From a virus, in IMG/VR virus record IMGVR_UViG_3300025117_000031, positions 89,921 through 153,920 of that record: a stretch of 64,000 nucleotides of DNA. The stretch is one strand, 5' to 3'. Of the stretch, positions 4,101-62,033 are shown piece after piece. The notes under the pieces were generated by a model. That model searched no databases. It saw nothing but the letters and a program-made list of their open reading frames with translations, and was not told where the DNA came from. The position numbers and the translations under genes were made by a program. Positions within the stretch are counted from its first letter, which is position 1; each line of letters opens with the position of its first letter.

Positions 4101-5364
4101 AGAGTGTATACCAGCAGTAAATGTTTTTTCTTCTTTGGAACAAAGATGGGAAGATGAAAGGACAATAACCGGACAAGTTCCAATTATTTCTTTAGAAACG
4201 GAAGTAGCTACGTCAGAAGACGCTAGAAACAATATCGTTGTATTTAATGGGTTTGTTTTCGAGAAATATATTCGTTTGGCAAAGAAATCTTTAACCGAGA
4301 GAGAAAGAAATAATCTTCCTTCTGGGGAGAATCCATCAAGTCTTCCTGCTGGAATTTTTAGTCCTCAAGAGGTAAGAGGTTTGTTTAACGGCATTTTACT
4401 TTCTAGAAAGATGAAAGATTACTATGAAAAAATCTCTTATGGACTGAGACTTTGCTATGCCGGCGAAGTTTCTGGAGAAGAGTACCAGAATCTTTATCAA
4501 ACTGCTGGAATCGTGCAAGAAAAGCTTTTTGGCCTTGGCTCAGGCGAGCCTTCTTTTTTGAATCCTTTGGCAAACACTGAAATCATTGATGAAGAGCTGT
4601 TGAGCATGGATTTTAATGTTGCGAAGACGACTGATTTTGCTTCTAGATACGGGGATAGAACACTAGAATTATATCAGAAAATAAAAGAAGTTGGTGAGTG
4701 TTCTTCTTTATTTGATTACGTTTTCCCTATGGGACGTTATCTGTCTTTGCTGGCAATTCAAAGCGTTTTCGCATCAGAGATAACAAATAATAATGCTGTA
4801 TCTTATGTGTTTTCAACGACAAAAGACAGACTTAGGTTTTTGTTTGAAACGGTTAATAACGGCGGTATGTTTGCTAATGATTCTTATGAAGAAGACCGGG
4901 CTTTGAAGGCTTTGGGTGGTAAAGAGGCACTAGGAGAAGTTTTAAGAAAGCCGCTGGAACAGATTAGTGGTGCAGACATACAAAAAATGTTTAATTCTAA
5001 GGGGTTTGATTATGGAATTGTCTTAAAATTTATGTTGGAAGCTCCTGTACAGATTTTTAGAGGGTTTGTAGAATTTGCAGATCCTAACATCAATATAGCC
5101 AGCAAGATGGCAATGTTTACAAGAATTTTTGCTGGGCAAGACATTCCAGTATCTGTTTTTTCTTTGATGCTGCAGCCGTCAACTTTGATGCCGGGAAGTT
5201 GGATGGGACCTCCTCTAACTTTTTTGGGGATCGCATATCTTTTGTTAAGTATGGGGTTTTCTATCAACATTCCAGAGTTTGAAGCTTTGGTGAAGAGAGA
5301 ATTAGGGAATTCGGCTAATACGGCAAGCGGGGTTGTTGATAATCCGCTCAAGTGCGAGGAATAA
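1156..5364 (+). CDS. Large structural protein, 1402 aa, baseplate region
   Basis: A very large soluble protein with long helical, Lys/Glu-rich segments (about residues 420-470 contain many RER/EER runs) and no signal peptide. A hydrophobic helical stretch occurs near residues 250-290 (LLEMIQSAILGLLESILELLL). The last 60 residues are hydrophobic and Gly/Pro-rich (LMPGSWMGPPLTFLGIAYLLL), so this end could associate with membrane or pack in a core. The gene starts directly after the previous stop and ends just before the gp25-like start. T4-type baseplate loci encode big hub or wedge components here, but I see no family-defining motif, so the role is inferred from position. Tape-measure-like activity cannot be excluded because helices dominate. 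Confidence 0.75.
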   Translation: MVSVPGSEILFDLLDHDEKIRNFFSVLAKTLRENDIFVENYSGTDLEFQFDSNNHPVAVVFHSSGGQVSVKKNIAELLGFAKQVEEAENFINQNTLLDVPLKKMFGVGITGGLDLESAVNMPKFGWGKMSLEDIMNKTEGKPGDNKEKTYSEILEENKVVYSEGFKKNLQESLENSSINVGGINLLEFSKVKTAKEAYGVVFDNTDVGNLINEAIYCLNGVAFELSRLQVPVFFFPDTLPTVDLMASFSLSLESALLEMIQSAILGLLESILELLLKYCKELREGLSNFNNLNIDNEKYFQRIFDLLKDENFLNSLGLTGNLEEDLKRLVKFILDVLYVLTPQEILDLFLGHPSEGTLYDILAVAGSGEYGLSESFLSSSFRMRALFFAVGNVVDKERIQNLANACRAVKTSTGPDGESVCTQQESALRDTLEREGADSEEIQRQIASERDRKKRLLEELARKADKLKNLKIPEACSPSKKGKLPNGFDRMAKSTIGAVFDPVYIAFDKDVSDWYKAFVKEKTIERKITSTLKPEEFFGNAPLGRIDGRIQYLLTQGVKPSGDQYTFHEKKIFIAHEIKDALENLSSRIKIELNVNRNVLMTVEVPKDEEYSKMFEMFSSQRTPGILSLTGQNISDVTLQKQYDGTLPYKLNVLKQTTTKERKFNLRDVPRGTEDRRSREDNNAPSREDLLEEQFETINKVEKQEISYVEGQIALRDSTREYLSSFESVITFSTRPQIEIFKKILGSFNTFRTSRSSDALITDYVQMSNKFVSALASRVSDTDKNKLFKTISVRTSGDTSLEIPVLKSVKFTFPPEGCSGERKHLLDIEELKAKALEDFSNNLCLKEFSNSSGQGRPQNSLEKSISDSVVQTTIRLYVLDYYLRGCFVLNEFSLDPPNEMLLDFFAEKIKTELFTYGEKYANDLLDSAKELFYRNGLSTDYSGDAKELKKLIEQQVVSLSKILRNEVFGSKRSKDIYDFTLQECIPAVNVFSSLEQRWEDERTITGQVPIISLETEVATSEDARNNIVVFNGFVFEKYIRLAKKSLTERERNNLPSGENPSSLPAGIFSPQEVRGLFNGILLSRKMKDYYEKISYGLRLCYAGEVSGEEYQNLYQTAGIVQEKLFGLGSGEPSFLNPLANTEIIDEELLSMDFNVAKTTDFASRYGDRTLELYQKIKEVGECSSLFDYVFPMGRYLSLLAIQSVFASEITNNNAVSYVFSTTKDRLRFLFETVNNGGMFANDSYEEDRALKALGGKEALGEVLRKPLEQISGADIQKMFNSKGFDYGIVLKFMLEAPVQIFRGFVEFADPNINIASKMAMFTRIFAGQDIPVSVFSLMLQPSTLMPGSWMGPPLTFLGIAYLLLSMGFSINIPEFEALVKRELGNSANTASGVVDNPLKCEE

Positions 5365-5366
5365 AA

Positions 5367-5741
5367 ATGCCACTTTCGGTAAGATTACCATTTCGCAGAG
5401 ATAGGAATTTTGGGTTTGCTATGAATGAAACTCATAGGGAGGTGGTAAAGCAGAACTTTAAGCATCTTTTGTTAACAGCGCCCGGCGAAAGAGTGATGAT
5501 ACCAGATTTTGGGGTTGGCTTGCGAAATTATTTGTTCGAAAATGCTACTTTGATTAGAGCGGAACTGGCGTCAAGAATTCAAGAACAAACAAATAAATAT
5601 ATGCCTTTTATTACTCTGCAAGACATTTCGATTAAAGAGAAAAACAATGAAATGACACTTAAAATTACGTATTTTATTGAGCCGATGGCGATAACAGACA
5701 ATTTGGAAATTAAGAAAAGAGGAGAGGATATCGTAATTTAA
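5367..5741 (+). CDS. Baseplate wedge protein, gp25-like (IraD/Gp25 family)
   Basis: About 124 residues, the usual size of the Gp25/IraD-like family. The family signature is clear: a central helix around HREVVKQNFKHLLLTAPGER, followed by VMIPDFGVGLRNYLFEN, and a C-terminal beta hairpin (ITLQDISIKE...MTLKITYFI). In T4, gp25 is the conserved wedge component that contacts gp6 and the sheath-proximal inner baseplate. I place the start at the ATG at 5367, preceded by GCGAGGA, rather than the in-frame GTG at 5352, which would overlap the upstream stop. The gp6-like partner gene follows, now separated from it by a transposable element. Confidence 0.93.
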   Translation: MPLSVRLPFRRDRNFGFAMNETHREVVKQNFKHLLLTAPGERVMIPDFGVGLRNYLFENATLIRAELASRIQEQTNKYMPFITLQDISIKEKNNEMTLKITYFIEPMAITDNLEIKKRGEDIVI

Positions 5742-5778
5742 TCTAATTATCCCCTTCGAGACTTAAACCATGAACTCC

Positions 5779-7035
5779 TTAGTTAGCACAGTTGCTCGAT
5801 TCCTGCCCATGAGGAAGTTTCGTTCTGGCCGTAAGGCCAGAGCCAGAGCTTTCTTGGCAGCAGGCTATCCCCGCCAGGGCGGCGGTTCTAAGATTAATGG
5901 CTGCGTTGATGTCTCGGTCGTGGACAACCCCACAAGCCTCGCAAACCCATTCTCGGACAGACAAAGGCAACGGTCCTTCTCGTCTTGTTCCGCAGTCGGA
6001 ACACAGCTTGGAAGAAGGGAACCAGCGGTCAGCAACGATGATTTCGCTGCCGGCAAGCGGAGCCTTATACGTGAGCTGACGCCTGATTTCCGACAAGGCA
6101 GCATCTGCAACCGACTTTGCAAGATGGTGATTTGCCATCATTCCTTTGACGTTCAAGTCCTCGATTCCAATCCGACGAAAGTCTCGGACCAGCCCAGCGG
6201 TAAGCTTATGTGTTACGTCTTTGCGGATGTTGGAAATCCGTTCATGCAACCGACCAAGCTTCGTTTTGGTCTTCTGCCAATTCTTCCCTCCTTTGACGCG
6301 ACGAGACATTTCCTTGTTGAGTCGTCGCAGTCTGGTTTCATGAGCACGCAGAATGCGCGGAGCCTCGACCCGCTCTCCCGTGGAGAGCACGGCAAGGTCT
6401 CGAAGTCCGAGGTCCACTCCAACCGCTTCTTGGGTTTCGCAGCGGTGAGGATAGGACCAGGAGTCGGAGACTTGAACTTGGATCGAGACGTACCAATGAC
6501 CGGCTTGTTTCGTAAAGTGAGCGGACAGGATTTTACCAGGGAATCTTATCTCTTGTCGGGTGCGGACCCAACCAAGCTTGGGGATTTTGACTCTTCGGCC
6601 GTCAAATCGGAGGGCTCGACCTTCAATAGCAAAGGTTGCTTTGTTCCATTTCTTCGACTTGAAACGGGGATAGCCGGGCTTTTGGCCAGATTTAACACGA
6701 CGAAAGAAGTTGGAGAAAGCAGAACCGAGGTTGGACAGCGCCGTATTGGCGACAGCCCACGGAAGATTTGCCATCCAAGGGAATTCCGTGGTTTTGCAGG
6801 CATTCAACTCGGTGTTAAGACTAATCCAAGACGGCTTTCCTCCGGCTTCGTATTGAGTTTTCCAACGGTCCAATCCCCAGTTGTAGACGAAACGAGAAAT
6901 TCCAGCGCAACGTTCGAAAAATGTTGCCTGGACGTTATTAAGATCCAGCCGAATGTGTTGGCCGAGGATAGTTATGGGGAGGTTATTATCAGGAGTTGTA
7001 GAGTGACGTTTCGACACATTATAAATATAGTACAA
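5779..7035 (-). CDS. tnpB: TnpB RNA-guided nuclease (copy 1)
   Basis: A 418-residue TnpB/OrfB protein. It has the N-terminal helix-turn-helix-like region, then the RuvC catalytic acids: D208 in GVDLGLRD, E292 in IGIEDLNVKG and D375 in HDRDINAAINL. A zinc ribbon of two CxxC pairs (C345/C348 and C365/C368) sits between the last two acids, as in the family. TnpB proteins cut DNA at a site set by an omega-RNA made from the element's right end. The reading frame opens with TTG and GTG codons and lacks an obvious ATG, so the true start is uncertain; GTG-Ser-Lys-Arg is an alternative. About 90% identical by eye to copy 2. Codon use is GC-rich and unlike the phage genes, indicating recent arrival. 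The antisense strand is open by chance. Confidence 0.92.
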   Translation of the reverse strand: MYYIYNVSKRHSTTPDNNLPITILGQHIRLDLNNVQATFFERCAGISRFVYNWGLDRWKTQYEAGGKPSWISLNTELNACKTTEFPWMANLPWAVANTALSNLGSAFSNFFRRVKSGQKPGYPRFKSKKWNKATFAIEGRALRFDGRRVKIPKLGWVRTRQEIRFPGKILSAHFTKQAGHWYVSIQVQVSDSWSYPHRCETQEAVGVDLGLRDLAVLSTGERVEAPRILRAHETRLRRLNKEMSRRVKGGKNWQKTKTKLGRLHERISNIRKDVTHKLTAGLVRDFRRIGIEDLNVKGMMANHHLAKSVADAALSEIRRQLTYKAPLAGSEIIVADRWFPSSKLCSDCGTRREGPLPLSVREWVCEACGVVHDRDINAAINLRTAALAGIACCQESSGSGLTARTKLPHGQESSNCAN

Positions 7036-7079
7036 AAAGTGGAATGTGTTGATTTTTTTGTAAATTCATTCTTTTTAAT

Positions 7080-45335: not shown

Positions 45336-47333
45336 ATGGCGAAATATAAAAAGTCTATGTCTTTTAAGGGCAATCCCAAGAATCCGGAGTCGGACCTTTT
45401 CAAAAGGCTGACAAGGTTCTTTTCCGGTCCTATAGCAGATTATCGTTCTCAAGTTCCAAGAGAACTAAAGCGAAGACAACTAAAAAAATATAAGTTTACT
45501 AATTCTGCTGGTGGTGATTTCGCAAAAAGCATGCACAATCCGTTTTCTGCTTTGCAAACGGAATATATGGTCAATCAAGACAGATTGATGCGCTATGCCG
45601 ATTATGAACAAATGGAGTACATGCCTGAAATAAGTTCTGCTTTGGACCTTACTGCAGATACCATGACTACGTTTAATCACATGGAGCCGATTCTAAGATT
45701 AGATAGTCCCAACCAAGAGATAAAGTTTATTTTAAAGGACTTGTTTTACAATATTCTTGCGGTAGAACAGAATCTTCACGGTTGGTGCAGATCACTTTTG
45801 TCCAAGGGTGATTTCTTTTTGTATCTTGATGCGGTCGAAGGGTTGGGCATTAAGAACGTCTTGGGGCTTCCTGCAAGAGAAATGGAAAGACTAGAAGGTC
45901 TAGACGAAGATAATCCGAGTTACGTTCAGTTTCAGTGGAACACTCAAGGAGCTACCTTTGAAAGCTGGCAAATGTGCCACTTTAGAATTCTTGGGAACGA
46001 TAGATATCTTCCATATGGAAGTTCTTTCCTTGACGCATCGCGTCGTATTTGGAAACAGCTTCAACTATTAGAAGACTTTGTTATTTCCTATCGCATTGTT
46101 CGAACACCAGAAAGAAGAGTATTTTATATTGATGTAGGAAACATTCATCCTGATGAAATTGAGCCTTATATGAAGAAGGTTCAAACAGAGATGAAGAGAA
46201 GATTTCTTGTGGATGAGAACACAGGAGAGGCTAACTTAAGATTTAACCCTCATAGTATAGAAGAGGATTACTTTATTGCTGTTCGAGGAGACAAATCGGG
46301 GACAAAGATTGAGTCTGTTCCTGGCGGCCAATTTACAGGTGATATTGAAGATATTGAGTATCTAAGAGATAAATTGTTTTCTGCTTTGAAGATCCCTCAA
46401 TCTTATCTCTCGAAGGGGAAAGACGGTTCGGCAGAGGATAAAACAACTCTTGCACAAAAAGATTTGCATTTCGCGAGGACTGTACAAAGATTACAAAATT
46501 CTGTAGTGTCTGAACTTCGCAAAATGGCAACTGTTCACTTGTTTCTACTAGGATTTACAGGTAGGGATTTATTGAATTTTGATATCAAGTTGAACAATCC
46601 ATCGAAGATCGCCGAAATGCAAAGCCTCGAAGAGTGGCGCACAAAGTTTGATGTTGCAAGTGCAGCCACCGAAAACTTCTTCTCTCGCAGGTGGATTGCG
46701 AAGACGGTCTTTAATCTTTCCGATGAAGAGATTGTCCGCAACAACAGAGAGAGATTTTTTGATATGAAGCTGGATGCTCTTCTTGCCGAGCACGAGCCGC
46801 AGGAAGAGGGCGGAGGCATGGGGCTTGGCGGCGGGGAAGACGCTGGCGGCATAGATGATATTTTTGACGACACGGCAGATGAAAAAGACAGCGACACTGC
46901 GGTTCCCGGCAAAGAAGAAGATATTCTTCTTGCCTCTCCGGGGAAAGATGTTGGCGGCATAGGCGATCCCGCTGCCAAGAGAACAGAAAAACTCTTACCT
47001 GGAACAAAATATACGACTCCTGGGGCGAAAGGAAAGGCTTATACAAAGAGACACGACGCGAGAGAAATGGGCGCAAGACAAAGAAATATTATGGCTCTCA
47101 CAAGTAGAGAAACGGCATCTAATACGCCAAGAAACGTATTTAAAGGACTTTCAGGACTGACTTCGTTATCAAGAGGGATTTTAGAGAACAAAGAAGAAGT
47201 GGAAGAAGAGTTTCTTCGCAATAGCGGAGAGATTCAGGATGTTCTAAGAACTCTTGAAAAAATTAAAGAAGATAAGAAATTCTTGAAAGAGGAAGTGAAC
47301 AAAAATGACAGCAATGATGACGACGAAAACTAG
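45336..47333 (+). CDS. Portal vertex protein (gp20-like)
   Basis: 665 residues with the T4-type portal pattern: N-terminal basic region, RLMRYADYEQMEYMPEISSALDLTADTMT, LLSKGDFFLYLD, FVISYRIVRTPERRVFYIDVGN, RDKLFSALKIPQSYLSKG and FARTVQRLQNSVVSEL. The C-terminal 150 residues are Gly/Asp-rich then basic and helical. It forms the dodecameric ring at one capsid vertex for DNA entry and neck attachment. It follows the terminase as expected and overlaps the next gene by 29 nt. Confidence 0.95.
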   Translation: MAKYKKSMSFKGNPKNPESDLFKRLTRFFSGPIADYRSQVPRELKRRQLKKYKFTNSAGGDFAKSMHNPFSALQTEYMVNQDRLMRYADYEQMEYMPEISSALDLTADTMTTFNHMEPILRLDSPNQEIKFILKDLFYNILAVEQNLHGWCRSLLSKGDFFLYLDAVEGLGIKNVLGLPAREMERLEGLDEDNPSYVQFQWNTQGATFESWQMCHFRILGNDRYLPYGSSFLDASRRIWKQLQLLEDFVISYRIVRTPERRVFYIDVGNIHPDEIEPYMKKVQTEMKRRFLVDENTGEANLRFNPHSIEEDYFIAVRGDKSGTKIESVPGGQFTGDIEDIEYLRDKLFSALKIPQSYLSKGKDGSAEDKTTLAQKDLHFARTVQRLQNSVVSELRKMATVHLFLLGFTGRDLLNFDIKLNNPSKIAEMQSLEEWRTKFDVASAATENFFSRRWIAKTVFNLSDEEIVRNNRERFFDMKLDALLAEHEPQEEGGGMGLGGGEDAGGIDDIFDDTADEKDSDTAVPGKEEDILLASPGKDVGGIGDPAAKRTEKLLPGTKYTTPGAKGKAYTKRHDAREMGARQRNIMALTSRETASNTPRNVFKGLSGLTSLSRGILENKEEVEEEFLRNSGEIQDVLRTLEKIKEDKKFLKEEVNKNDSNDDDEN

Positions 47334-49636: not shown

Positions 49637-49680
49637 AAGAGCGGTTGCGAGGTGCGCGAAAGGGTGCTGACGAGGTAAAA

Positions 49681-50304
49681 ATGATGGCTAAGATATTACT
49701 AAAAGAGTTCTTTAATTTATGTCCGGATGGTCGGTGTGGGTTGGATCTTCTCACCGAAGAAGAACGGCATGAAGTAAAAAACGGGGCGATGTATCTGCAA
49801 GGGGTTTGTCAAAAAAAGGACACACGTAATCAAAACTCTCGTCGGTATCCCTCCGATGTGTTGGAGCGCGAAGTTAACAACTATTTGAAATTAGTGAAAG
49901 AAAACAGGGCGTTAGGAGAATGTGACCATTCGGAGAACGAAGTTGTTAATTTAAAAAACGCTTCCCATCTGATAACGAATTTGTGGTGGAAGGGGAACGA
50001 TTTGTGGTGTAAGGCGAAGGTTCTGTCCACCCCTGCTGGACAAATATTGCGCTCTTTGGTTAACGATGGGGTGCAGTTGGGTATTTCTTCTCGTGCTCTT
50101 GGGTCTTTGAGCGAAGGTGGAGATGGAACAAAGATTGTGGGGGACGACCTCCAACTTATTTGTTGGGATTTTGTTTCTGAGCCTTCTACTACTGGAGCTT
50201 TTATGCATATTGCCGAAGGATTACAAAGAAAATATTATACAAACGTTGAAACAAAAGCTGATAGAATTAATAGATTGATCAATGACTTTGTAAGGGGTGC
50301 ATAA
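49681..50304 (+). CDS. Prohead core protease (gp21-like)
   Basis: About 208 residues from the ATG at 49681 (GACGAGG upstream). Family features: QKKDTRNQNSRRYPSDVLEREV, GECDHSENEVVNLKNASH with the catalytic His at about 83, LSTPAGQILRSLVNDG, and GISSRALGSL with the catalytic Ser near 136. T4 gp21 degrades the scaffold and trims head proteins after (L/I)-x-E sites. Candidate (I/L)-x-E sites occur right after the shared N-terminal helix of several nearby proteins, making them likely substrates. Followed by a 170-residue protein. Confidence 0.93.
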   Translation: MMAKILLKEFFNLCPDGRCGLDLLTEEERHEVKNGAMYLQGVCQKKDTRNQNSRRYPSDVLEREVNNYLKLVKENRALGECDHSENEVVNLKNASHLITNLWWKGNDLWCKAKVLSTPAGQILRSLVNDGVQLGISSRALGSLSEGGDGTKIVGDDLQLICWDFVSEPSTTGAFMHIAEGLQRKYYTNVETKADRINRLINDFVRGA

Positions 50305-51546: not shown

Positions 51547-51918
51547 ATGTCTTCTAGGTTTTTTTCATATAATTCAAGCACAAGTACAGGAACGGGCACG
51601 GGGTATACAGAGGTAACGTCTTCTTGTGCTCTTGGATTAAATACAATAGAAGCGACAGATATGTCTGGTTCCTATCTGGCTTTGTATGAATATTATCTCA
51701 CCTCTGGTTCAACAGCTAGGGCTGGGCTTGTTCATGCTTTATATATGTCTAGTTCGGCCGGTGGAGCTTCTGCTTCCTATCAAGATTCTGGCCCTGCTGA
51801 TATTGGAAGTTTTCCAACAGCCTCTGTGTATGTTGAAGCATCAAGTTCATATCTTAACTTTATTGTTTCGTCTTCTGTTGCGGCAATGTCTGCAACTGTA
51901 AATAGAATAACGTTTTAG
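51547..51918 (+). CDS. Virion surface protein candidate, 123 aa
   Basis: Starts MSSRFFSYNSST and is extremely Ser/Thr/Ala/Gly-rich with few charges, consistent with an all-beta extracellular or particle-surface protein. Leader GAGGAGAGAAAAATTA. It shares the MSSR start and size class with its upstream neighbour but no clear homology beyond that. Function unknown. Confidence 0.6.
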   Translation: MSSRFFSYNSSTSTGTGTGYTEVTSSCALGLNTIEATDMSGSYLALYEYYLTSGSTARAGLVHALYMSSSAGGASASYQDSGPADIGSFPTASVYVEASSSYLNFIVSSSVAAMSATVNRITF

Positions 51919-51931
51919 CGAGGAATAAGTT

Positions 51932-52642
51932 GTGAAAAAAGAAGCGTTTTTTGGAATAGGGTTTATAACTTTATTTATTGGGTTTCTTGTTGCGGCAAAT
52001 ACTATCTTTCGGGATGGTATTACGTTGCCAAACAACGAATTCTTTTCTGCTTTTAATGCGGCAGGCTCTGCTACTGTTGATGTTTTAAAAGTTAATACGA
52101 GCGACAGGGGAGAGTTTGGTGTAGATACGGAAATAGGTGCAGTAACTTGTTTGGAAGATTATGGTGCCGAATGCGTTATTGGAGATTTATCTATTTCTGC
52201 AACTCCTGTCGCAGGAACAGAAGAAAGTATTGAAGTAAGAATAGACGGCACAGGACATACTAAATTTTATTGTGAGACAGATGGTTCTGGTGCTGCACAA
52301 AATTGCAAGACGGAACTAACTCACGATTTGGATTTAAATTCTGGTCTTATTGCATCTAGAATTGCGGTTGCTGCTGCAACATATTCTGCAACAGGAACAT
52401 ATGTTTTAATTGGCGTTACATATACCACAACAGCAGCAGTTACGGTGACTTTGGATACGGATGCTGTGGATGCGGGAAGAGTAATAATAATTAAAGATGA
52501 AGGTGGCGGGGCTGGAACAAGAAATATTACTGTTGATACCGAAAGCACAGAATTAATTGACGGTCAAGCAAGCATATTAATAGCGGAAAATTACGGTGTT
52601 GTTAGGTTATATTCCAACGGCACCAATTGGTTCATGTGGTAA
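51932..52642 (+). CDS. Membrane-anchored fibre-like protein, 236 aa
   Basis: GTG start after GCGAGGAATAAGTT. An N-terminal TM or signal helix at residues 5-24 (AFFGIGFITLFIGFLVAAN) is followed by beta-rich repeats. The C-terminus (VDAGRVIIIKDEGGGAGTRN...YGVVRLYSNGTNWFMW) is a module I recognise from many phage tail fibres. A TM anchor on a fibre module is unusual and suggests a protein displayed on the infected cell, or an uncleaved signal; the alternative is a fibre with a hydrophobic attachment helix. Confidence 0.68.
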   Translation: MKKEAFFGIGFITLFIGFLVAANTIFRDGITLPNNEFFSAFNAAGSATVDVLKVNTSDRGEFGVDTEIGAVTCLEDYGAECVIGDLSISATPVAGTEESIEVRIDGTGHTKFYCETDGSGAAQNCKTELTHDLDLNSGLIASRIAVAAATYSATGTYVLIGVTYTTTAAVTVTLDTDAVDAGRVIIIKDEGGGAGTRNITVDTESTELIDGQASILIAENYGVVRLYSNGTNWFMW

Positions 52643-52671
52643 TAAAGGACTCGCAAGAGGAGAAAAAATAA

Positions 52672-53226
52672 ATGGATTTGAGAGCTAAGTCTTCAAATGA
52701 TTATAGATGGGACGATTTGAGAATCGCAATGTCTTCTGTTAAAGTTGCTGGAGTTCACGATCCAAACTTCGCAAAACTAACAGGAAGCGGAGCGACAGAT
52801 GGGGTTTATACATATTTCTTCGATCCTGCGACAGAAGAAGAAGTTTATTTTGAGACTCAGATGCCTCACGATTGGTATCAGGGCTCTTCCATTTATCCTC
52901 ATATCCATTGGTGTCCTACCTCAACAGGTTCAGGAAACGTGGTTTGGGGTTTGGAATATACTTTAGCTTCCGTGAGTGGAACCTTTGGACAAACTGTTCT
53001 TATGTCTGCTTCTTTCGCAGCAACAGGAACAATAAATTATCATCAAATGGCAATTTTACCTTCGATGAGTATGTCTGGAAAAACTATTTCTTGTATTATC
53101 TTCGGAAGATTATATCGAGCTGCGGCAGATGGTGGAGATACATATGCAGAAGATGCGGCAGCTATTTCTTTCGACTTCCATTATCAAAAAGACGATAGAG
53201 GAAGCTATAATCAATATACGAAATAA
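52672..53226 (+). CDS. Phage structural/fibre protein, 184 aa
   Basis: Leader AGAGGAGAAAAAATAA. Recognisable pattern of a widespread phage protein found near tail fibres: DDLRIAMSSVKVAGVHDPNF, FDPATEEEVYFETQMPHDWYQGSSIYPHIHWCPTS, and VVWGLEYTLASVSGTFG. All-beta and probably surface exposed; His-rich near PHIHW. The exact role is unknown; in several phages such genes lie beside fibre or capsid decoration genes. Confidence 0.7.
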   Translation: MDLRAKSSNDYRWDDLRIAMSSVKVAGVHDPNFAKLTGSGATDGVYTYFFDPATEEEVYFETQMPHDWYQGSSIYPHIHWCPTSTGSGNVVWGLEYTLASVSGTFGQTVLMSASFAATGTINYHQMAILPSMSMSGKTISCIIFGRLYRAAADGGDTYAEDAAAISFDFHYQKDDRGSYNQYTK

Positions 53227-53252
53227 ATAAGATATTAATTAGAGGTTTTGTA

Positions 53253-53906
53253 ATGTCCACAACAGAGAAAACAAAGCAAGAAAAAGAATCTAGAGCAAAG
53301 GAACTACTAGTTGGCCTTGGACTGGCAGCCATTGTAGCTGCCGGTGGAACGACAGCATATTTAAATTTATGGGATACACATGTTGCAGTTGAAGCAACAA
53401 AAGGCCGAGACGTAAATAAAATCAAAGATAAACAAGTTGAAAAGCAATATTGCGGACATATAAAAAATCCTCTAACAGAAGAGACTTTCTATTCTTGCAC
53501 AAACGCAAAATTAGAAGAAGTAAAGACAGGTTTGTTAAATAACATGATTATATTAAAGTATTGCGGCACTGTATCTGAGAAATTAGAAAAGTGTCCGGAA
53601 TGGCCAGCAGAACAATTATCTTCATGTTGTTGTGTACCTCCTTTGGTAGTAGTTGACGATTGTTTTTGTGGAACAATAGAAACTGTCGTTGATGCTGATA
53701 CTGGCGAGACACAAGAAAAAGAAATATTCTCTTCGACAGACAGAGCTTTGCAATGCACAAATGGGTATGTGACAGGAGGACAAGAGACTTCTTGTGTTGT
53801 TAATGATCCTTCTTTAAATTGTGTTGTCTGGCCGATGAATGTGATGTCAGGGGAAAATCCTGGCAAGATAGCAAAACAAAAAACTGTTGAAAACGAAGGG
53901 GAATAG
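53253..53906 (+). CDS. Membrane-anchored Cys-rich protein, 217 aa
   Basis: A charged N-terminal tail is followed by a TM helix near residues 18-40 (LLVGLGLAAIVAAGGTTAYL). About 13 cysteines then follow in the C-terminal domain (SSCCCVPPLVVVDDCFCG), an ectodomain probably held by disulfides in the periplasm. It lies just upstream of the lipoprotein with a Cys-rich repeat. No family is recognised; a cell-surface or periplasmic role during infection is inferred from topology. Confidence 0.68.
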   Translation: MSTTEKTKQEKESRAKELLVGLGLAAIVAAGGTTAYLNLWDTHVAVEATKGRDVNKIKDKQVEKQYCGHIKNPLTEETFYSCTNAKLEEVKTGLLNNMIILKYCGTVSEKLEKCPEWPAEQLSSCCCVPPLVVVDDCFCGTIETVVDADTGETQEKEIFSSTDRALQCTNGYVTGGQETSCVVNDPSLNCVVWPMNVMSGENPGKIAKQKTVENEGE

Positions 53907-53940
53907 CAGAGAGAAGTTTCCAATAAGAGAGAAAAAATAA

Positions 53941-56103
53941 ATGAAGATGATGAAATCTATTATAGCAGGAGTGATATTCTTTCTTTTGTCTTGTGATGAA
54001 AGCTCCTGCTCTCAGCTTGTTATAAAGTCTGGCATTTCGGGAGATTTTGTTATAAAGTCTGGTGTTTCTGGGGATTTGATGGTCCAGGCAACATGTGGTG
54101 ATGGAGTAACAAACGGTACAGAGACGTGCGATGATGGAAATTTGGTAAGTGAGGACGGATGCGATTCTAATTGTGCAGACGAAGTTATTTTTAAGTTGGG
54201 ATATGATGAGATTGGGGGGAATTTGGTTTCTGGCCTTTCCCAGCTTTCCAAAAACCTCACCATAAACGGCATTGAAGTTGCGCCTAGCGTGTGGTGTGAG
54301 GGGCAGGACGCAGGCGCGTCGACGTGGGCTTGCGACTATGGCGGGACGCTGGCCGTTGTCAACGGTGGGGCGGACGTTACACCCGGTGTAGCGGCTCCAT
54401 TCACAGACGGCACAACTGCGCTTAGTGGTGGTGCCGATTATTTTCAGGCAAGCGCAAACACGGTTGGGGATATAGGTACAGAGGACTTTGCCCTAGAATT
54501 TATGACGAAAGCGCCAGCAGCAACTAGCTTTTTAGCACAAAAAGGTGGCACGGCTTTCTGGTCAATAACAAGCTATACCACTTCTAACCGGCTTTCAATT
54601 GATGATGGTCCAGACAATAAATATGCGGACTCTGTTGCCAGTGCTTTGTCGTGGACGCATACGATCTGCTTTGTGAATAGAGACGAGGCTAGCACAAATG
54701 GGATGGTTTGTTACGGTAATGCAACAGCAGGGACCGGTGTAGACGCTAGTTCTGTCGGCAACATGTCAGAAGCGACAACCCTAAAAGTTTTGGCGTCTGC
54801 AACGGGTGCGTTGCCCTTTGGTAGTAACCTAGTTCACGTCGCCATGTGGAAATACCCCTCCTGGCACAAAGCCGGCGCCGACGGTCCCGCAGAATGGGCC
54901 GTGATCGCGAAGCAGCGCTTTTACCAATTGGCCGGCATATACCCGCAAACCGCACCAACAAAACTTGCAACATATACAAGAGCGACCACAGCAACGCTTG
55001 AAATTCAGGACACACACACAAACAACGCAACCAACTTTTTTAATGTTGGCTCCGGTTGGCCTAGAGTTGTTCGAGACTGCGACAGCGACGAATGTTTAAA
55101 TGGTGTCTTGGCAGAACCTGCAATAACAAATAAAATACTTCAAAGCTCAGCATTTGGCACAACATGGACAAATATTGATGCCCTTGACGACATAGCGGAC
55201 GGCACAACCGACATATTTGGAACGGCTTTGGCAGATGGGTTTACAGCCGGAACAGGAACCTCTGTGCATGGCGTTACCCAAGCTGTGACATTAACTGCTG
55301 CAACACATACTTTTTCCGTATATGCCAAACCAGGAAACAGAGACTGGCTATATTTGTCAGATGACACAGTAGCCAACGCATATAGCTATTTTAATATTTC
55401 GTCTTGTGCTCTTGGCACAAAAGGGGCAGGAGCAAGCGAGGCTCTTGTGCAAGATGTTGGTGACTATTGCAGAGTTTCTATTGCGTATCTTGGAACAGCA
55501 GCATCACACACACATAAAATTGCATTTGCGGAAGCTGACACCGACAACGAATTTGCAGGGGATGATGCAACGGTATCAGGTTATTTACTTGGTGCTCAGG
55601 TAGAAGCATATGGCGCAGCAACATCTTTTATTGCAACGACAACGGCGCAAGTGACAAGAAATACAGACTCTTTAGAATATACTTTTACGGGACCAAACAC
55701 AGGGACAATGGAATTTAGTTTTATGTGCAAGAGTATTGACGCGCCGCATACGATCCAGGCTTTATTTTCTTTGTCAGATGGAACAAATGAAAATAGGGTT
55801 GGCTGGTTTATAAATACAAATACCAGCGTTGGAAGACAGCAAATATTAGTTGGGAATTCTAGTGTTTCCAATTTAATAGGAACTACAGATATTATGGACA
55901 ATTCTGTTCATTCGCTCACGGGGTTGTGGGGAACGTCAAATAATGCGGTTTATATTGATGATGTCTTAGAAGCATCTTCGGGAACGTCAATTTCTATTCC
56001 AAGCACGACAAAACTAGGTATTTCTTTAGGAGCCATGCAATATCAGCCCGCCTTTTGCATCCAAAACGGAGTTAGGATCTGGAACCGCCAGATCGCCCCA
56101 TAG
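53941..56103 (+). CDS. Lipoprotein-like LamG/fibre protein with Myxococcus-type Cys-rich repeat
   Basis: 720 residues. A signal peptide ends in a lipobox-like LLSC with C18. Short repeats VIKSGISGD and VIKSGVSGD follow, then a Cys-rich motif near 52-78 (CGDGVTNGTETCDDGN, then EDGCDSNC) matching the DUF4215/myxo_disulf_rpt pattern. Residues about 90-330 look LamG-like, 390-560 resemble phage head-spike/carbohydrate modules (ILQSSAFGTTWTN), and the last 130 residues are a second LamG-like unit ending VRIWNRQIAP. Base composition rises sharply from about 54270 to 55000, so the gene is mosaic. It may be displayed on the infected host or on virions. Confidence 0.78.
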   Translation: MKMMKSIIAGVIFFLLSCDESSCSQLVIKSGISGDFVIKSGVSGDLMVQATCGDGVTNGTETCDDGNLVSEDGCDSNCADEVIFKLGYDEIGGNLVSGLSQLSKNLTINGIEVAPSVWCEGQDAGASTWACDYGGTLAVVNGGADVTPGVAAPFTDGTTALSGGADYFQASANTVGDIGTEDFALEFMTKAPAATSFLAQKGGTAFWSITSYTTSNRLSIDDGPDNKYADSVASALSWTHTICFVNRDEASTNGMVCYGNATAGTGVDASSVGNMSEATTLKVLASATGALPFGSNLVHVAMWKYPSWHKAGADGPAEWAVIAKQRFYQLAGIYPQTAPTKLATYTRATTATLEIQDTHTNNATNFFNVGSGWPRVVRDCDSDECLNGVLAEPAITNKILQSSAFGTTWTNIDALDDIADGTTDIFGTALADGFTAGTGTSVHGVTQAVTLTAATHTFSVYAKPGNRDWLYLSDDTVANAYSYFNISSCALGTKGAGASEALVQDVGDYCRVSIAYLGTAASHTHKIAFAEADTDNEFAGDDATVSGYLLGAQVEAYGAATSFIATTTAQVTRNTDSLEYTFTGPNTGTMEFSFMCKSIDAPHTIQALFSLSDGTNENRVGWFINTNTSVGRQQILVGNSSVSNLIGTTDIMDNSVHSLTGLWGTSNNAVYIDDVLEASSGTSISIPSTTKLGISLGAMQYQPAFCIQNGVRIWNRQIAP

Positions 56104-56197
56104 AACGGCAATAATGGACATAACAGCATATTCGCGAGACAAACAAATATAATTTACTCTTGGAAAAGAAAGTTTCCAACAAGACAACAAAAAATAA

Positions 56198-56341
56198 ATG
56201 ACAAATACACAAGATCACAACAATAGAGCAATGGAAATAGTTTCAAAATTAAAGGTTCCTGCACTTGTTGTAACAGCCGTTGCAACAGCGATGGTGGGGC
56301 TATTTGAAACATATAGGGAAGAAAAGAAAAAAGATGTTTGA
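56198..56341 (+). CDS. Small membrane peptide, 47 aa, coupled to the cytochrome gene
   Basis: A short frame MTNTQDHNNRAMEIVSKLKV, followed by a hydrophobic helix (PALVVTAVATAMVGLF) and a charged tail ETYREEKKKDV. The leader ACAACAAAAAATAA resembles others in this block but has no strong SD. The stop TGA at 56339-56341 overlaps the cytochrome ATG at 56334, suggesting coupled translation. It could be a partner or assembly factor for the cytochrome, or a small holin-type protein. Confidence 0.6.
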   Translation: MTNTQDHNNRAMEIVSKLKVPALVVTAVATAMVGLFETYREEKKKDV

Positions 56342-56711
56342 ATTGGGGGAAAGAGAGATAAAGAATTTCTTTCTATTCTTATTAACTATTATAATCATTG
56401 TTTTTATTGTATTTCTTTCAAAAGTTTCCTATTCACAAGGATTAAACAAAGATACTTTGGATTGTTTATCTTGTCATGATGGAGTGATTGCCAAGGACAT
56501 AGCTTTAGAAAATTCGCATCCGGTAGGAATGACGTACCCTCCTCTGAGAAAAACAAACGAATATAATGTCTTTATAAGACTTCCTTTATACGAAAATAAT
56601 ACAATTCAATGTAAAACTTGCCACGGTGTAGGGTTGGAATCGCAACATTGGACAGAAATGCGAATAGCTTTATATAGAAGCGAACTTTGCCTAGAATGTC
56701 ATTCCATTTAA
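56334..56711 (+). CDS. Membrane-anchored tri-heme cytochrome c (paired CXXCH type)
   Basis: 125 residues. An N-terminal hydrophobic helix (residues 11-29, NFFLFLLTIIIIVFIVFLS) acts as signal or anchor, with YSQ possibly a cleavage site. Three heme-binding motifs follow: CLSCH at 44-48, CKTCH at 93-97 and CLECH at 119-123. DCLSCHDGVIAKD...SHPVG and LPLYENNTIQCKTCHG...LYRSELCLECH follow the doubled-CXXCH cytochrome layout, including a spare His in HPVG as a possible distal ligand. Maturation would need the host's periplasmic heme-ligation system. The TAA stop is the last base before the tnpB element, yet the protein looks complete because the family normally ends near the last CXXCH. Start shares bases with the 47-residue frame. 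Confidence 0.88.
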   Translation: MFELGEREIKNFFLFLLTIIIIVFIVFLSKVSYSQGLNKDTLDCLSCHDGVIAKDIALENSHPVGMTYPPLRKTNEYNVFIRLPLYENNTIQCKTCHGVGLESQHWTEMRIALYRSELCLECHSI

Positions 56712-56739
56712 GACTTAAACCACGAACTCCTTAGTTAAC
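56711..56739 (+). repeat. Left-end inverted repeat of tnpB element copy 2
   Basis: A 29-nt end beginning AGACTTAAACCACGAAC and ending TTAGTTAAC. It is the reverse complement of 58041-58069 with one mismatch (CACG against CATG). Similarity continues weakly for another 10 nt. Confidence 0.8.
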
Positions 56740-56795
56740 ACGACTGCTGATAGACGAAACAACGAATTTACAAAAAAATCAACATATTTCACTTC

Positions 56796-58049
56796 GTGTG
56801 CTATATTTATAGTGTGCCGAAACGTCATTCTACAGCTTCCGACAAAAGCCTCATAACTATCCTCGGCCAACGCATTCGGCTGGATCTTAATAACGTCCAG
56901 ACAACCTTTTTCGAACGTTGCGCTGGAACTTCTCGTTTCGTTTATAATTGGGGATTGGACCGCTGGAAAGCTCAGTACGAGGCTGGTGGAAAACCGTCGT
57001 GGGTTAGTCTTAGCTCTGAACTGAATGCCTGTAAAACTACCGAATTTCCCTGGATGATCAAGCTGCCGTGGGCTGTTGCCGCAACGGCGTTGTCCAACCT
57101 CGGCAATGCTTTTTCCAACTTCTTTCGCCGTGTTAAATCTGGCCAAAAGCCCGGCTATCCCCGTTTCAAGTCGAAGAAACGGAACAAAATGTCCTTTGCT
57201 ATTGAAGGTCGAGCCCTTCGATTTGACGGCCGAAGAGTTAAGATTCCCAAGCTTGGTTGGGTCCGCACCCGACAAGAGATAAGATTCCCCGGCAAAATCT
57301 TGTCTGCTCACTTTATGAAACATGCCGGTCATTGGTACGTCTCGATCCAAGTTCAAGTCTCCGACTCCTGGTCCTATCCCAATCGCTGCGAAACCCAAGA
57401 AGCGGTTGGAGTGGACCTCGGGCTCCGAGACCTTGCCGTGCTTTCCACGGGAGAACGGGTCGAGGCTCCGCGCATTCTGCGTGCTCACGAAACTAGACTG
57501 CGACGATTCAACAAGGAAATGTCTCGTCGCGTCATAGGAGGAAGAAATTGGCAGAAGACTAAAATGAAGCTTGGTCGGCTGCATGAACGGATTTCCAACA
57601 TCCGCAAAGACGTAACACATAAGCTTACCACTCGGCTGGTCCAAGACTTTCGTCGGATTGGAATCGAGGACTTGAACGTCAAAGGAATGATGGCAAATCA
57701 CCATCTTGCAAAGTCGGTTGCAGATGCTGCCTTGTCGGAAATTAAGCGTCAGCTTACGTATAAAGCTCCGCTTGCCGGCAGTGAAATCATTGTTGCCGAC
57801 CGTTGGTTCCCTTCTTCCAAGTTGTGTTCCGACTGCGGAACGAGACGAGAAGGGCCGTTGCCTTTGTCCGTCCGAAAATGGGTTTGCGAGGCTTGCGGGG
57901 TTGTCCACGACCGAGACCTCAACGCAGCCATTAACCTTAGAACCGTCGCCCTGGCGGGGATAGCCTGCTGTCAAGAAAGCTCTGGCTCTGGCCTTACGGC
58001 CAGAACGAAACTTTCTCTTGGGCAGGAATCGAGCATTCATGTTAACTAA
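56796..58049 (+). CDS. tnpB: TnpB RNA-guided nuclease (copy 2)
   Basis: 417 residues, colinear with copy 1. RuvC acids are present in GVDLGLRD, IGIEDLNVKG and HDRDLNAAINL, with zinc ribbon CSDCG and CEACG. Like copy 1 it begins with GTG codons (GTG-Cys-Tyr, or the later GTG-Pro-Lys-Arg), with no nearby ATG. Differences from copy 1 are scattered substitutions, all conservative around the catalytic residues, so both appear functional. The stop lies in the right-end repeat, so any omega-RNA would overlap the end of the gene and read out into phage DNA. Confidence 0.92.
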   Translation: MCYIYSVPKRHSTASDKSLITILGQRIRLDLNNVQTTFFERCAGTSRFVYNWGLDRWKAQYEAGGKPSWVSLSSELNACKTTEFPWMIKLPWAVAATALSNLGNAFSNFFRRVKSGQKPGYPRFKSKKRNKMSFAIEGRALRFDGRRVKIPKLGWVRTRQEIRFPGKILSAHFMKHAGHWYVSIQVQVSDSWSYPNRCETQEAVGVDLGLRDLAVLSTGERVEAPRILRAHETRLRRFNKEMSRRVIGGRNWQKTKMKLGRLHERISNIRKDVTHKLTTRLVQDFRRIGIEDLNVKGMMANHHLAKSVADAALSEIKRQLTYKAPLAGSEIIVADRWFPSSKLCSDCGTRREGPLPLSVRKWVCEACGVVHDRDLNAAINLRTVALAGIACCQESSGSGLTARTKLSLGQESSIHVN

Positions 58050-58069
58050 GGAGTTCATGGTTTAAGTCT
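58041..58069 (-). repeat. Right-end inverted repeat of tnpB element copy 2
   Basis: Reverse complement of 56711-56739 with one mismatch. It contains the tnpB stop codon region (GTTAACTAAGGAG). The same segment is found at the right end of copy 1. Confidence 0.8.
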
Positions 58070-58179
58070 CGAAGGGGATATGAAGTAGCAGATTGTAGGT
58101 TTCTGTAGACAAACATCTTCCCAAATCTATAATAAAAACAAGAGCTTCTGCCTTCCTAGTTATAAAGAGGGCAAGAAAG

Positions 58180-58401
58180 ATGAAGAAGTTATTATTTGTT
58201 ATCTTGGCAACAATGCTGTTCGAGGGATGTCTGCCTGTCTGTTTCTTATATTGTCCTGCAGCCCCTGGACGTTGGACATACGTCGGCTGTCTTCCTCCCG
58301 GAGGTAGTTTAACGTTGCCTGCAACAGAGCAAACAGAAGAGCAGACAAAAGAAACGCAGAGACAAGAAAAACAAAAACAAGTCGTTCCTTCTGCTTTCTA
58401 A
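58180..58401 (+). CDS. Small lipoprotein, 73 aa
   Basis: A signal peptide MKKLLFVILATMLFEGC ends in a lipobox-like L-F-E-G-C with C17. A Cys/Pro-rich middle (PVCFLYCPAAPG) and a Gln/Glu/Lys tail follow. Small phage lipoproteins act as outer-membrane spanins or superinfection blockers; this one is near a holin-like gene, which favours a lysis link but does not prove it. Preceded by a 100-bp gap with no gene (58081-58179) in which I see only AT-rich sequence and the leader GAGGGCAAGAAAG. Confidence 0.68.
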   Translation: MKKLLFVILATMLFEGCLPVCFLYCPAAPGRWTYVGCLPPGGSLTLPATEQTEEQTKETQRQEKQKQVVPSAF

Positions 58402-58417
58402 GAAAAACCGATATTAT

Positions 58418-58434
58418 TAGCCTAATTATGAGAG
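58418..58434 (+). promoter_or_regulatory. Candidate late promoter TAGCCTAATTATGAGAG
   Basis: Shares AGCCTAATTAT with 30781 and CTAATTATGA with 45300. It lies in the 48-bp gap before the holin-like gene. Confidence 0.4.
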
Positions 58435-58449
58435 AGAACATCCTCTTTT

Positions 58450-59040
58450 ATGGAGATTTATAAAAACATGATTAGAACATTGAAAGAACAAACAAAGAAG
58501 TTATTCTGGGTTATAACAACTTTCTTAATTGCTTCTCCCGCATTAGCTTCCGAGAGCTTATGGGGAAACGAGAAATTAAGAGAAAGTTTAATGAATTTTG
58601 CTGCAGACAGCATTGTTGTAGCATCTCCGTTAATCTTGGGTATTTTGACAGTTCTTTTAACTCGTCTTATGCAGTATCTTTCGACTAAGACGAAAAATGA
58701 AAAAGTCAAAGGAGCCTTTGAGAAAGTAGATGATCTTTTAATGAATGCTGTTTCATATACTTCTGCGACCTACACACAAAAATTAATTGATGCAAGACAG
58801 CCCGACTCTCCTGGAGGCGTGAATTTAACAAAAGAAGAGCAAGAAGAGGCAATGAGAATAACTCTAGAAGCCTTCAAGACACATGCTGGTACGAAGGGGC
58901 TAAAAGATATTTATTCTGTCTTGGGATTAACCCCTGAGCAAGCAGACGACGCCCTTAAAATCAGGGCAGAGGCCATTCTTAACGAGCAAAATATTCAGAA
59001 AAAAGCTCTTTTCGCAAGACATAATGCAGAAAATGATTAG
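58450..59040 (+). CDS. Holin-like membrane protein (LL-H type), 196 aa
   Basis: A signal-like N-terminus (LFWVITTFLIASPALASES) precedes a TM helix near residues 52-75 (FAADSIVVASPLILGILTVLL). It continues TRLMQYLSTKTKNEKVKGAF and LTKEEQEEAMRITLEAFKTH, a layout resembling the LL-H phage holin family. Holins permeabilise the inner membrane to trigger lysis. Two starts are possible, 58450 and 58468; GGAG at 58452 would serve the second. No endolysin gene was recognised nearby. Confidence 0.65.
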   Translation: MEIYKNMIRTLKEQTKKLFWVITTFLIASPALASESLWGNEKLRESLMNFAADSIVVASPLILGILTVLLTRLMQYLSTKTKNEKVKGAFEKVDDLLMNAVSYTSATYTQKLIDARQPDSPGGVNLTKEEQEEAMRITLEAFKTHAGTKGLKDIYSVLGLTPEQADDALKIRAEAILNEQNIQKKALFARHNAEND

Positions 59041-60332: not shown

Positions 60333-62033
60333 ATGGGTATTCTACAAAAACTAACTGAAGGTATTGTGAAAAGAGATTTTCGCAAAGAAACCTCAGCTCT
60401 AGTTCAAAAATGGGAAAAGATCGGTCTTCTGGAAGGTCTCTCTGGTATTAAAAGAGATAACCTAGTTGTTCTGTTAGAGAACGAAGCAAAAGAACTTCTG
60501 CGCGAAGCAACCACAATGGAAGCCGGTGCAGTTGAAGGTTTTGCCGCTGTTGCGTTCCCCCTGGTCCGCAGAGTGTTTGGTGAGCTGATTGCCCAAGACC
60601 TGGTGTCTGTGCAACCGATGTCGCTGCCTGCTGGTCTGATCTTCTTCATGGATTTCGTTCGTAATGCAGCTCGTGGTCCTTTCGCTGCTAGCGAGTCAAT
60701 CTATGGTGGTGGTGTGACTGGTTCTGGTATCGCGTCTGGTATTTCTCTTACTAGCTCTTCGGCTGAAACTGGTTATTTCAATCTGTCTCAAGGTTATTCA
60801 AAGGCCACTGGTAGCACAATCGTTGCGTCGTCTTCGTTTACCTATAGCGCTCCGATTACTCTGTCCACCGGCTCTACGAATATGACCGATGCAAACAAAT
60901 TAATCTTCCGTTTTGACGCTGACCTACTGTCTGAAGGCGACGATGCAAATACTGCTGGTACAAATCTTTATCTGCACAAAATCACTGTTAATCCTTCAAG
61001 TTCTTGGGACACTCAATTTGACGTGAACAGTCTTATGGCCGTCAATGCGACTGGTTTCACTAGCTCTTGGAACAACAGACTGATCCGCAGACTAACTGAT
61101 TATACAAGCGGTGTTCTTTCTTTATTTGTTGTGTCTGATAACGGAACTGGTGTTGTGGGTGCAAGTGCCAATATTACTATTACCTTCCCTGTGACCGATA
61201 CACTGGCTGCTGGTACAAGCCTGGGCTCTATCGTTGGTAGCAACTACTGGCCTCTAGAGAACGAGACTGATATTCCTGAGCTGAATATCAAAGTAAATTC
61301 TCTGCCCATCGTTGCCGGCTCTCGTAAGCTGAAAGCAAAGTGGACCCCCGAGCTAGAGCAGGATCTAGGCGCGTTCCACAATGTTGATCCCGAAGTTGAG
61401 CTGACTGGCATTATGTCCGAAACCGTTGCTCTAGACATCGACCAGGAAATCCTGGGCGAGCTGATCAAAGGTGGAACCGCTGGCAAACTTTACTGGAGTC
61501 GTAGACCTGGTAAGTTCGTAAACCGTCTGACTGGTGCTGATATTACTTCCAATGGTGCGAATCTGCCCGACTTCACTGGCAACGTAAGCCAATGGTATGA
61601 GACTCTTGTCGAGACCATGAACGACCTGAGCGCTGATATCCATCGCAAGACGCTGCGAGGCGGTGCGACCTTCGTTGTGACTTCACCTGAAATCGCCAAC
61701 ATCCTTGAGTTCACTGCTGGCTTCCGTGCAGACGTGACTGGTGATGCTGAGAAGGGTTCCGTGGGGACTTATAAGAACGGCTCAATCAACAAAAAGTGGG
61801 ACATCTATGTTGATCCGTACTTCCCCCGCAATGTGATTCTGATGGGTCGTAAGGGTAAAGGCTTCTTGGAGTCGGGGTTTTGTTACGCGCCGTACGTCCC
61901 CCTTGAGATGACCCCTGTGATCCTCGACCCGGATGACTTCACTCCTCGTCGCGGCTGTCTGACCCGATACGCTAAGAAGATGGTAAGGTCAGATATGTAT
62001 GGTCTTGTAATTGTTACGGATTTGGAAGGCTAG
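60333..62033 (+). CDS. Major capsid protein (gp23-like)
   Basis: 566 residues. The diagnostic segment is DNLVVLLENEAKELLREATT, followed by AFPLVRRVFGELIAQDLVSVQPMSLPAG, the T4 gp23/HK97-type E-loop and P-domain entry. A strong SD AAAAAGGAG lies upstream. Possible prohead-protease sites are near residues 55-70 (TTMEAGAVEG). Codon use differs sharply from all neighbours (CTG, CGT/CGC, GGT favoured over TTA, AGA, GGA), as expected for the most expressed virion gene. A terminator follows 32 nt after the stop. Confidence 0.96.
   Translation: MGILQKLTEGIVKRDFRKETSALVQKWEKIGLLEGLSGIKRDNLVVLLENEAKELLREATTMEAGAVEGFAAVAFPLVRRVFGELIAQDLVSVQPMSLPAGLIFFMDFVRNAARGPFAASESIYGGGVTGSGIASGISLTSSSAETGYFNLSQGYSKATGSTIVASSSFTYSAPITLSTGSTNMTDANKLIFRFDADLLSEGDDANTAGTNLYLHKITVNPSSSWDTQFDVNSLMAVNATGFTSSWNNRLIRRLTDYTSGVLSLFVVSDNGTGVVGASANITITFPVTDTLAAGTSLGSIVGSNYWPLENETDIPELNIKVNSLPIVAGSRKLKAKWTPELEQDLGAFHNVDPEVELTGIMSETVALDIDQEILGELIKGGTAGKLYWSRRPGKFVNRLTGADITSNGANLPDFTGNVSQWYETLVETMNDLSADIHRKTLRGGATFVVTSPEIANILEFTAGFRADVTGDAEKGSVGTYKNGSINKKWDIYVDPYFPRNVILMGRKGKGFLESGFCYAPYVPLEMTPVILDPDDFTPRRGCLTRYAKKMVRSDMYGLVIVTDLEG

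Follow-up and report, generated by a model that had tools for sequence, protein, structure and literature searches.

A predicted OmcE-related triheme cytochrome encoded by a T4-like phage

Phages are known to encode electron-transfer proteins as auxiliary metabolic functions, photosynthetic carriers among them, as exemplified by the plastocyanin, ferredoxin and PTOX genes of cyanophages. Multiheme cytochromes have been described on the archaeal Borgs (PMC9605863). In bacteria, OmcE-family multiheme cytochromes serve as periplasmic or extracellular electron carriers, a role established for OmcE itself (PMC9473688), the nanowire-forming tetraheme cytochrome of Geobacter sulfurreducens (PDB 7TFS). 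The triheme cytochrome c7 of Geobacter (PpcA, PF14522) is a further small periplasmic multiheme protein.

The gene considered here lies in a window of 64,000 bases, that is, the whole stretch of DNA that was analysed, corresponding to positions 89921-153920 in a virus record of 153,920 bases. As with the cyanophage redox genes and the Borgs, a mobile element carries a redox protein that may support host energy metabolism; in this case, however, the element is a T4-like phage and the protein a multiheme cytochrome of the bacterial OmcE family. No report of a phage-encoded OmcE-family cytochrome was found in the open-access literature searched, although absence there is not proof.

The cytochrome and its family

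56334-56711, + strand: predicted 125-aa triheme c-type cytochrome, OmcE-related family (ATG start, 378-base frame)
56334-56438, + strand: N-terminal hydrophobic helix of the cytochrome, residues about 6-36 (hydropathy, and AlphaFold helix 6-36)
56198-56341, + strand: 47-aa single-TM ORF whose stop overlaps the cytochrome start codon (ATGTTTGA)

The protein contains three CXXCH motifs, at residues 44-48 (CLSCH), 93-97 (CKTCH) and 119-123 (CLECH), together with two further histidines, H62 (in HPVG) and H105. Chance clustering of the motifs is ruled out, since none of 200,000 residue shuffles contained three. A single hydrophobic stretch, at about residues 11-30, precedes the first motif, with a hydropathy maximum of 2.95 at residues 13-31, the level of a transmembrane helix, and the AlphaFold model (mean pLDDT 59) is confident for this N-terminal helix only. 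The N-terminus may be a signal-anchor or, possibly, a signal peptide cleaved between SYS and Q. The overlap of the cytochrome start with the stop of the 47-aa ORF means that the two are probably translationally coupled; the match of the latter to a PHROG membrane protein is weak (E 0.046). The preliminary description, made from the DNA letters, had noted the three motifs, the HPVG histidine and the hydrophobic helix within 125 residues, all of which are confirmed. Its identification of an exported or anchored triheme c-type cytochrome also stands as a sequence-based prediction, whereas its assignment to the doubled-CXXCH cytochromes has to give way to the OmcE-related family.

Which evidence places the protein in that family? 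Pfam and NCBIfam searches returned sub-threshold matches only (cytochrome c3, cytochrome c7 and others). The doubled-CXXCH profiles fall well short of their cut-offs (PF09699, 10.8 bits vs 20.6; TIGR01905, 9.6 vs 25.2), and those for cytochromes c7 and c3 also stay under the curated values (PF14522, 20.8 vs 24.8 bits; PF14537, 21.7 vs 25), so that the likeness to PpcA is explained better by the OmcE-related family. In a direct phmmer comparison, OmcE (7tfs) is the best solved relative (E 6e-5), and a 29-row profile that includes the phage protein matches 7tfs at E 7e-28. Against a profile of OmcE relatives built exclusively from bacterial sequences and two PDB fragments, the phage cytochrome scores 62.8 bits, while the best of 5,000 shuffles in which the CXXCH cysteines and histidines were kept in place reaches 29.3. 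H62 and P63, the HPV-type histidine and its neighbour between OmcE motifs 2 and 3, are invariant in all 29 alignment rows. With OmcE and the “putative multiheme cytochrome c” of PDB 9YUQ, the phage protein has in common the core CLSCHDG...NxHPV...LPL...CxxCH...LCxxCH, which extends over hemes 2-4. A genome scan for relatives (the best 80 of 178 were retained) recovered Planctomycetes, Acidobacteria, Gammaproteobacteria, Desulfuromonadia and others. Judged by these comparisons, the phage cytochrome is a triheme member of the OmcE-related family.

The triheme form and its bacterial relatives

The phage protein covers the family hemes 2-4. In contrast to OmcE, a chain of 232 residues, it has neither heme 1 nor the N-terminal domain, and the histidine that ends the CHxxH sequence is gone as well, so that both marks of OmcE proper, the N-terminal fourth heme motif and CHxxH, are absent. 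The third OmcE motif continues as CHxxH in the family; the phage sequence reads CHGVG. Is this a randomly shortened OmcE? The last histidine of CHxxH is kept in 77 of the 77 scored proteins that have heme 1, and it is missing from all four complete proteins without heme 1 in the first scored set (those of the window, L103 and L105, and Geobacter L045). The pairing fails in that set only for L027, which is truncated at the end of its contig. A triheme profile run against 195 genomes of one class gave a further set of 48 bacterial relatives with three hemes, and CHxxH is absent from every one of them. The joint loss of heme 1 and the CHxxH histidine is therefore strict in all complete genes examined, and the simplest reading is that this histidine would ligate heme 1. 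Because the two losses are paired, the phage cytochrome represents a regular triheme form and not a random truncation.

The nearest architecture is found in trihemes of 126-150 residues from Desulfuromonadia (e.g., L166, L167, L170 and L174). Like these proteins, the phage cytochrome falls within about 125-150 aa, has an N-terminal hydrophobic segment predicted as the one TM segment, three CXXCH motifs, HPV, a histidine before the last motif and the sequence YPPx[GR][KRH], and lacks CHxxH. The YPPx[GR][KRH] motif is present in the phage protein and in eight of 11 short Desulfuromonadia trihemes, against none of 118 others (0/37 other trihemes, 0/81 tetrahemes), a count that is descriptive because the motif was seen in the alignment before counting. 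The proteins differ in that identity is 26-36% and in that the phage cytochrome has no histidine before motif 1 (KVSYSQG), where most short bacterial trihemes have HH (HHG). The small triheme genes of Desulfuromonadia (L166, L167, L170, L172, L174) often lie beside an Rrf2-type regulator, cysK (cysteine synthase) and a LarE-like gene, as named by eye, a neighbourhood that may point to a connection with sulfur metabolism.

A phylogeny against bacterial cytochromes, proposed in the preliminary description, does not settle the position among three groupings: in AU tests, joining the phage protein to the short Desulfuromonadia trihemes (p 0.20; 0.204), to all trihemes (0.28) or to the planctomycete tetrahemes (0.29) is in no case rejected, the branch being long and the columns few.

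The phage protein has one distal histidine fewer than the short bacterial trihemes. With H62 and H105 as the sole histidines outside CXXCH for three hemes, one heme is probably without a histidine ligand from within the protein. Such a heme might bind NO, CO, sulfide or peroxide, in sensing or detoxification, and so protect the infected cell; most bacterial short trihemes have, in addition, the HH before motif 1. The missing ligand could nevertheless come from a methionine or a partner protein, and no catalytic motif was found; this role is regarded as very unlikely.

The absence of heme 1 and the N-terminal part, with the rest of the fold kept, is also what would be expected of a shortened OmcE-like subunit that mixes with or caps the OmcE-type nanowires of the host, or their export route. 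OmcE filaments need a histidine from the neighbouring subunit to coordinate a heme (PMC9473688), and several other exported proteins are encoded around the gene (see below). In doing so, the subunit would obstruct filaments that might serve other phages as receptors, or stop extracellular electron transfer, in a dominant-negative or superinfection-exclusion role. However, the triheme form also occurs in bacteria, encoded by ordinary genes of the chromosome, hence the shape is not that of a blocker made by the phage, and most viral members of the family are full-length tetraheme proteins. Such interference is considered quite unlikely. Polymerisation as in OmcE is unlikely for a protein without heme 1 and the N-terminal part.

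The gene in its phage context

43672-45264, + strand: large terminase TerL, phage anchor (phrog_2, E 6e-44)
45336-47333, + strand: T4-type portal protein, phage anchor (PF07230, E 1e-74; record positions 135511-136668)
49645-50304, + strand: prohead maturation protease, phage anchor (phrog_207, E 1e-46)
51547-59040, + strand: lineage-specific island with many exported proteins, flanked by the prohead-protease cluster on one side and by the scaffold and major capsid genes on the other
56796-58049, + strand: TnpB-family RNA-guided nuclease of an IS element, between inverted ends, directly 3' of the cytochrome stop and separate from the cytochrome
58180-58401, + strand: predicted small lipoprotein, 73 aa, o-spanin-like by layout only (from sequence; no family match)
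58450-59040, + strand: holin-like protein with N-terminal hydrophobic segments (phrog_13712 holin, E 1.2e-4, a weak match)
60333-62033, + strand: Gp23-type major capsid protein, phage anchor (PF07068, E 7e-64)

The T4-type structural genes lie on the same contig and strand as the cytochrome, which marks the latter as a gene of a T4-like phage. Its composition (GC 0.325, GC3 0.27) fits the phage, most neighbouring phage genes having GC 0.36-0.40 and GC3 0.25-0.34. Gene and flanks are identical, over the part compared, in two further IMG/VR records; the arrangement is contiguous in all three, and all known copies of the gene of this virus are identical. With three agreeing records and phage genes on both flanks, host contamination or misassembly is unlikely, although the records may come from related samples and would then not be fully independent. 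The earlier claims that the gene is phage-encoded, in the codon style of its neighbours, and that it is not a standard phage gene are thus upheld, the second by the lack of any tblastn match in 50,697 phage records; two bacterial relatives used as queries found none in phage records either, and a tblastn search of plasmids gave one weak match only. No other ORF with at least two CXXCH motifs occurs in the remaining 90 kb of the virus record.

In related phages with 50-54% identical capsid proteins, no multi-CXXCH frame was found near the capsid gene, and in L015, the only relative whose locus spans the full interval, the protease cluster is close to the scaffold gene. The cytochrome is therefore placed in a lineage-specific island of about 51.5-59.0 kb. 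The same island encodes a 720-aa protein (53941-56103) whose C-terminal part resembles a tail protein; it also has a DUF4215 motif and, at the N-terminus, a hydrophobic signal like that of a lipoprotein, which is atypical of a virion fibre. A 217-aa exported protein (53253-53906) encoded in the island has clustered cysteines and matches no family.

At 0.51, the GC content of the neighbouring TnpB gene is above that of the phage. Four near-full copies of the element, about 90% identical, were observed in the virus (window 56757-58080 and 5748-7074, L004 782-2106 and L007 17721-19044), in addition to four isolated segments of its right end, each about 140 bases long (L005 3715-3854, 6413-6552, 17067-17206 and 18306-18451). 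The latter correspond to where the omega RNA would lie and could be stand-alone guide RNA units.

Might the cytochrome be a passenger, picked up with host DNA and now decaying without a present function? The long branch in the trees and the adjoining mobile element would agree with this. Against it, the heme-binding residues, an intact frame, a natural C-terminus and a phage-like codon composition have all been retained, and related genes recur in unrelated phages, which leaves a decaying passenger unlikely.

The position of the gene near those for a holin-like protein and a small lipoprotein brings to mind a lysis function, in which a membrane cytochrome would tune the proton-motive force that controls holin triggering. 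In another viral record, L108, the cytochrome directly follows two Rz/Rz1-like (i-/o-spanin-like) genes (4956-5646). These are two cases only, however: the neighbours in L101, L103 and L105 are nucleotide-metabolism, tRNA or DNA genes, the holin match in the window is weak, and the TnpB element separates the genes there. A part in lysis timing is accordingly given a very small chance, the smallest of the roles weighed here.

Shine-Dalgarno motifs precede 21 of 36 genes, compared with a background of 14%, a frequency that argues against a Bacteroidota host. A Desulfuromonadia host is suggested by the signature motif alone.

Viral relatives and proposed function

Profile-guided scans of 2.9 million IMG/VR contigs recovered OmcE-family cytochromes in eight further viral populations, six with the tetraheme and two with the triheme form. 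Phage structural or packaging genes are present in four of the eight: L102 has TerL, L103 has Gp23 and L110 has portal and TerL, while L104 is less clean, with TerL-like matches of which one has an internal stop. L101 and L105 are short records in which phage-type ribonucleotide reductase, dCMP deaminase, exonuclease or DNA polymerase is present. For L106 (494 kb) and L108 (166 kb), searches for Gp23, TerL, portal and sheath were empty, and their neighbouring genes are phage-like only; L106 carries a phage-type adenylosuccinate synthetase. The L103 cytochrome shares 47% identity with the product of a triheme gene on a bacterial chromosome. As a separate observation, the large viral records that contain OmcE-family multiheme cytochromes (L101-L108, L110 and L123) reach up to 536 kb, and most of the proteins are full-length tetrahemes.

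On the best tree, the virus label changes eight times, and at least three changes are forced by well-supported branches alone (two in a smaller tree). As the viral members are scattered on the tree and come from eight further populations, captures have been repeated but rare, which suggests that phages repeatedly borrow parts of the electron wiring of their hosts. The wider proposal, that large phages of metal- or mineral-respiring bacteria repeatedly capture OmcE-family cytochromes and manipulate periplasmic or extracellular electron transfer of the host, nanowires included, is tentative and still doubtful.

What would the protein do in the infected cell? The preferred reading, with a probability of roughly 0.55, is that an exported, host-matured cytochrome captured from the OmcE-related bacterial family joins the periplasmic electron transfer of the host during infection. 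It would most likely sustain or divert the flow of respiratory electrons in the host; the idea in the preliminary description that host electron transfer is sustained or redirected is plausible. A T4-like phage would have captured the gene from OmcE-related bacteria, among which the short Desulfuromonadia trihemes are most like it. The product would be exported by the Sec pathway and would receive its hemes from the cytochrome c maturation system of the host; no CcmC/CcsA-type maturation gene (PF01578) was found in the virus record, so that maturation would rely on the host. The cytochrome would then remain at the inner membrane, on its periplasmic face, and may pass electrons within the host pool of periplasmic multiheme cytochromes. 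In this way, respiration and the proton-motive force could be kept up during the shutdown of synthesis by the host itself.

The paired loss of heme 1 and the CHxxH histidine provides a testable structural rule for the OmcE-related family, and the sequences allow a test of whether infected cells respire on virus-made cytochromes. If the phage cytochrome is functional, viruses would alter anaerobic and extracellular respiration, which in groundwater and sediments drives the chemistry of iron, carbon and electrodes.
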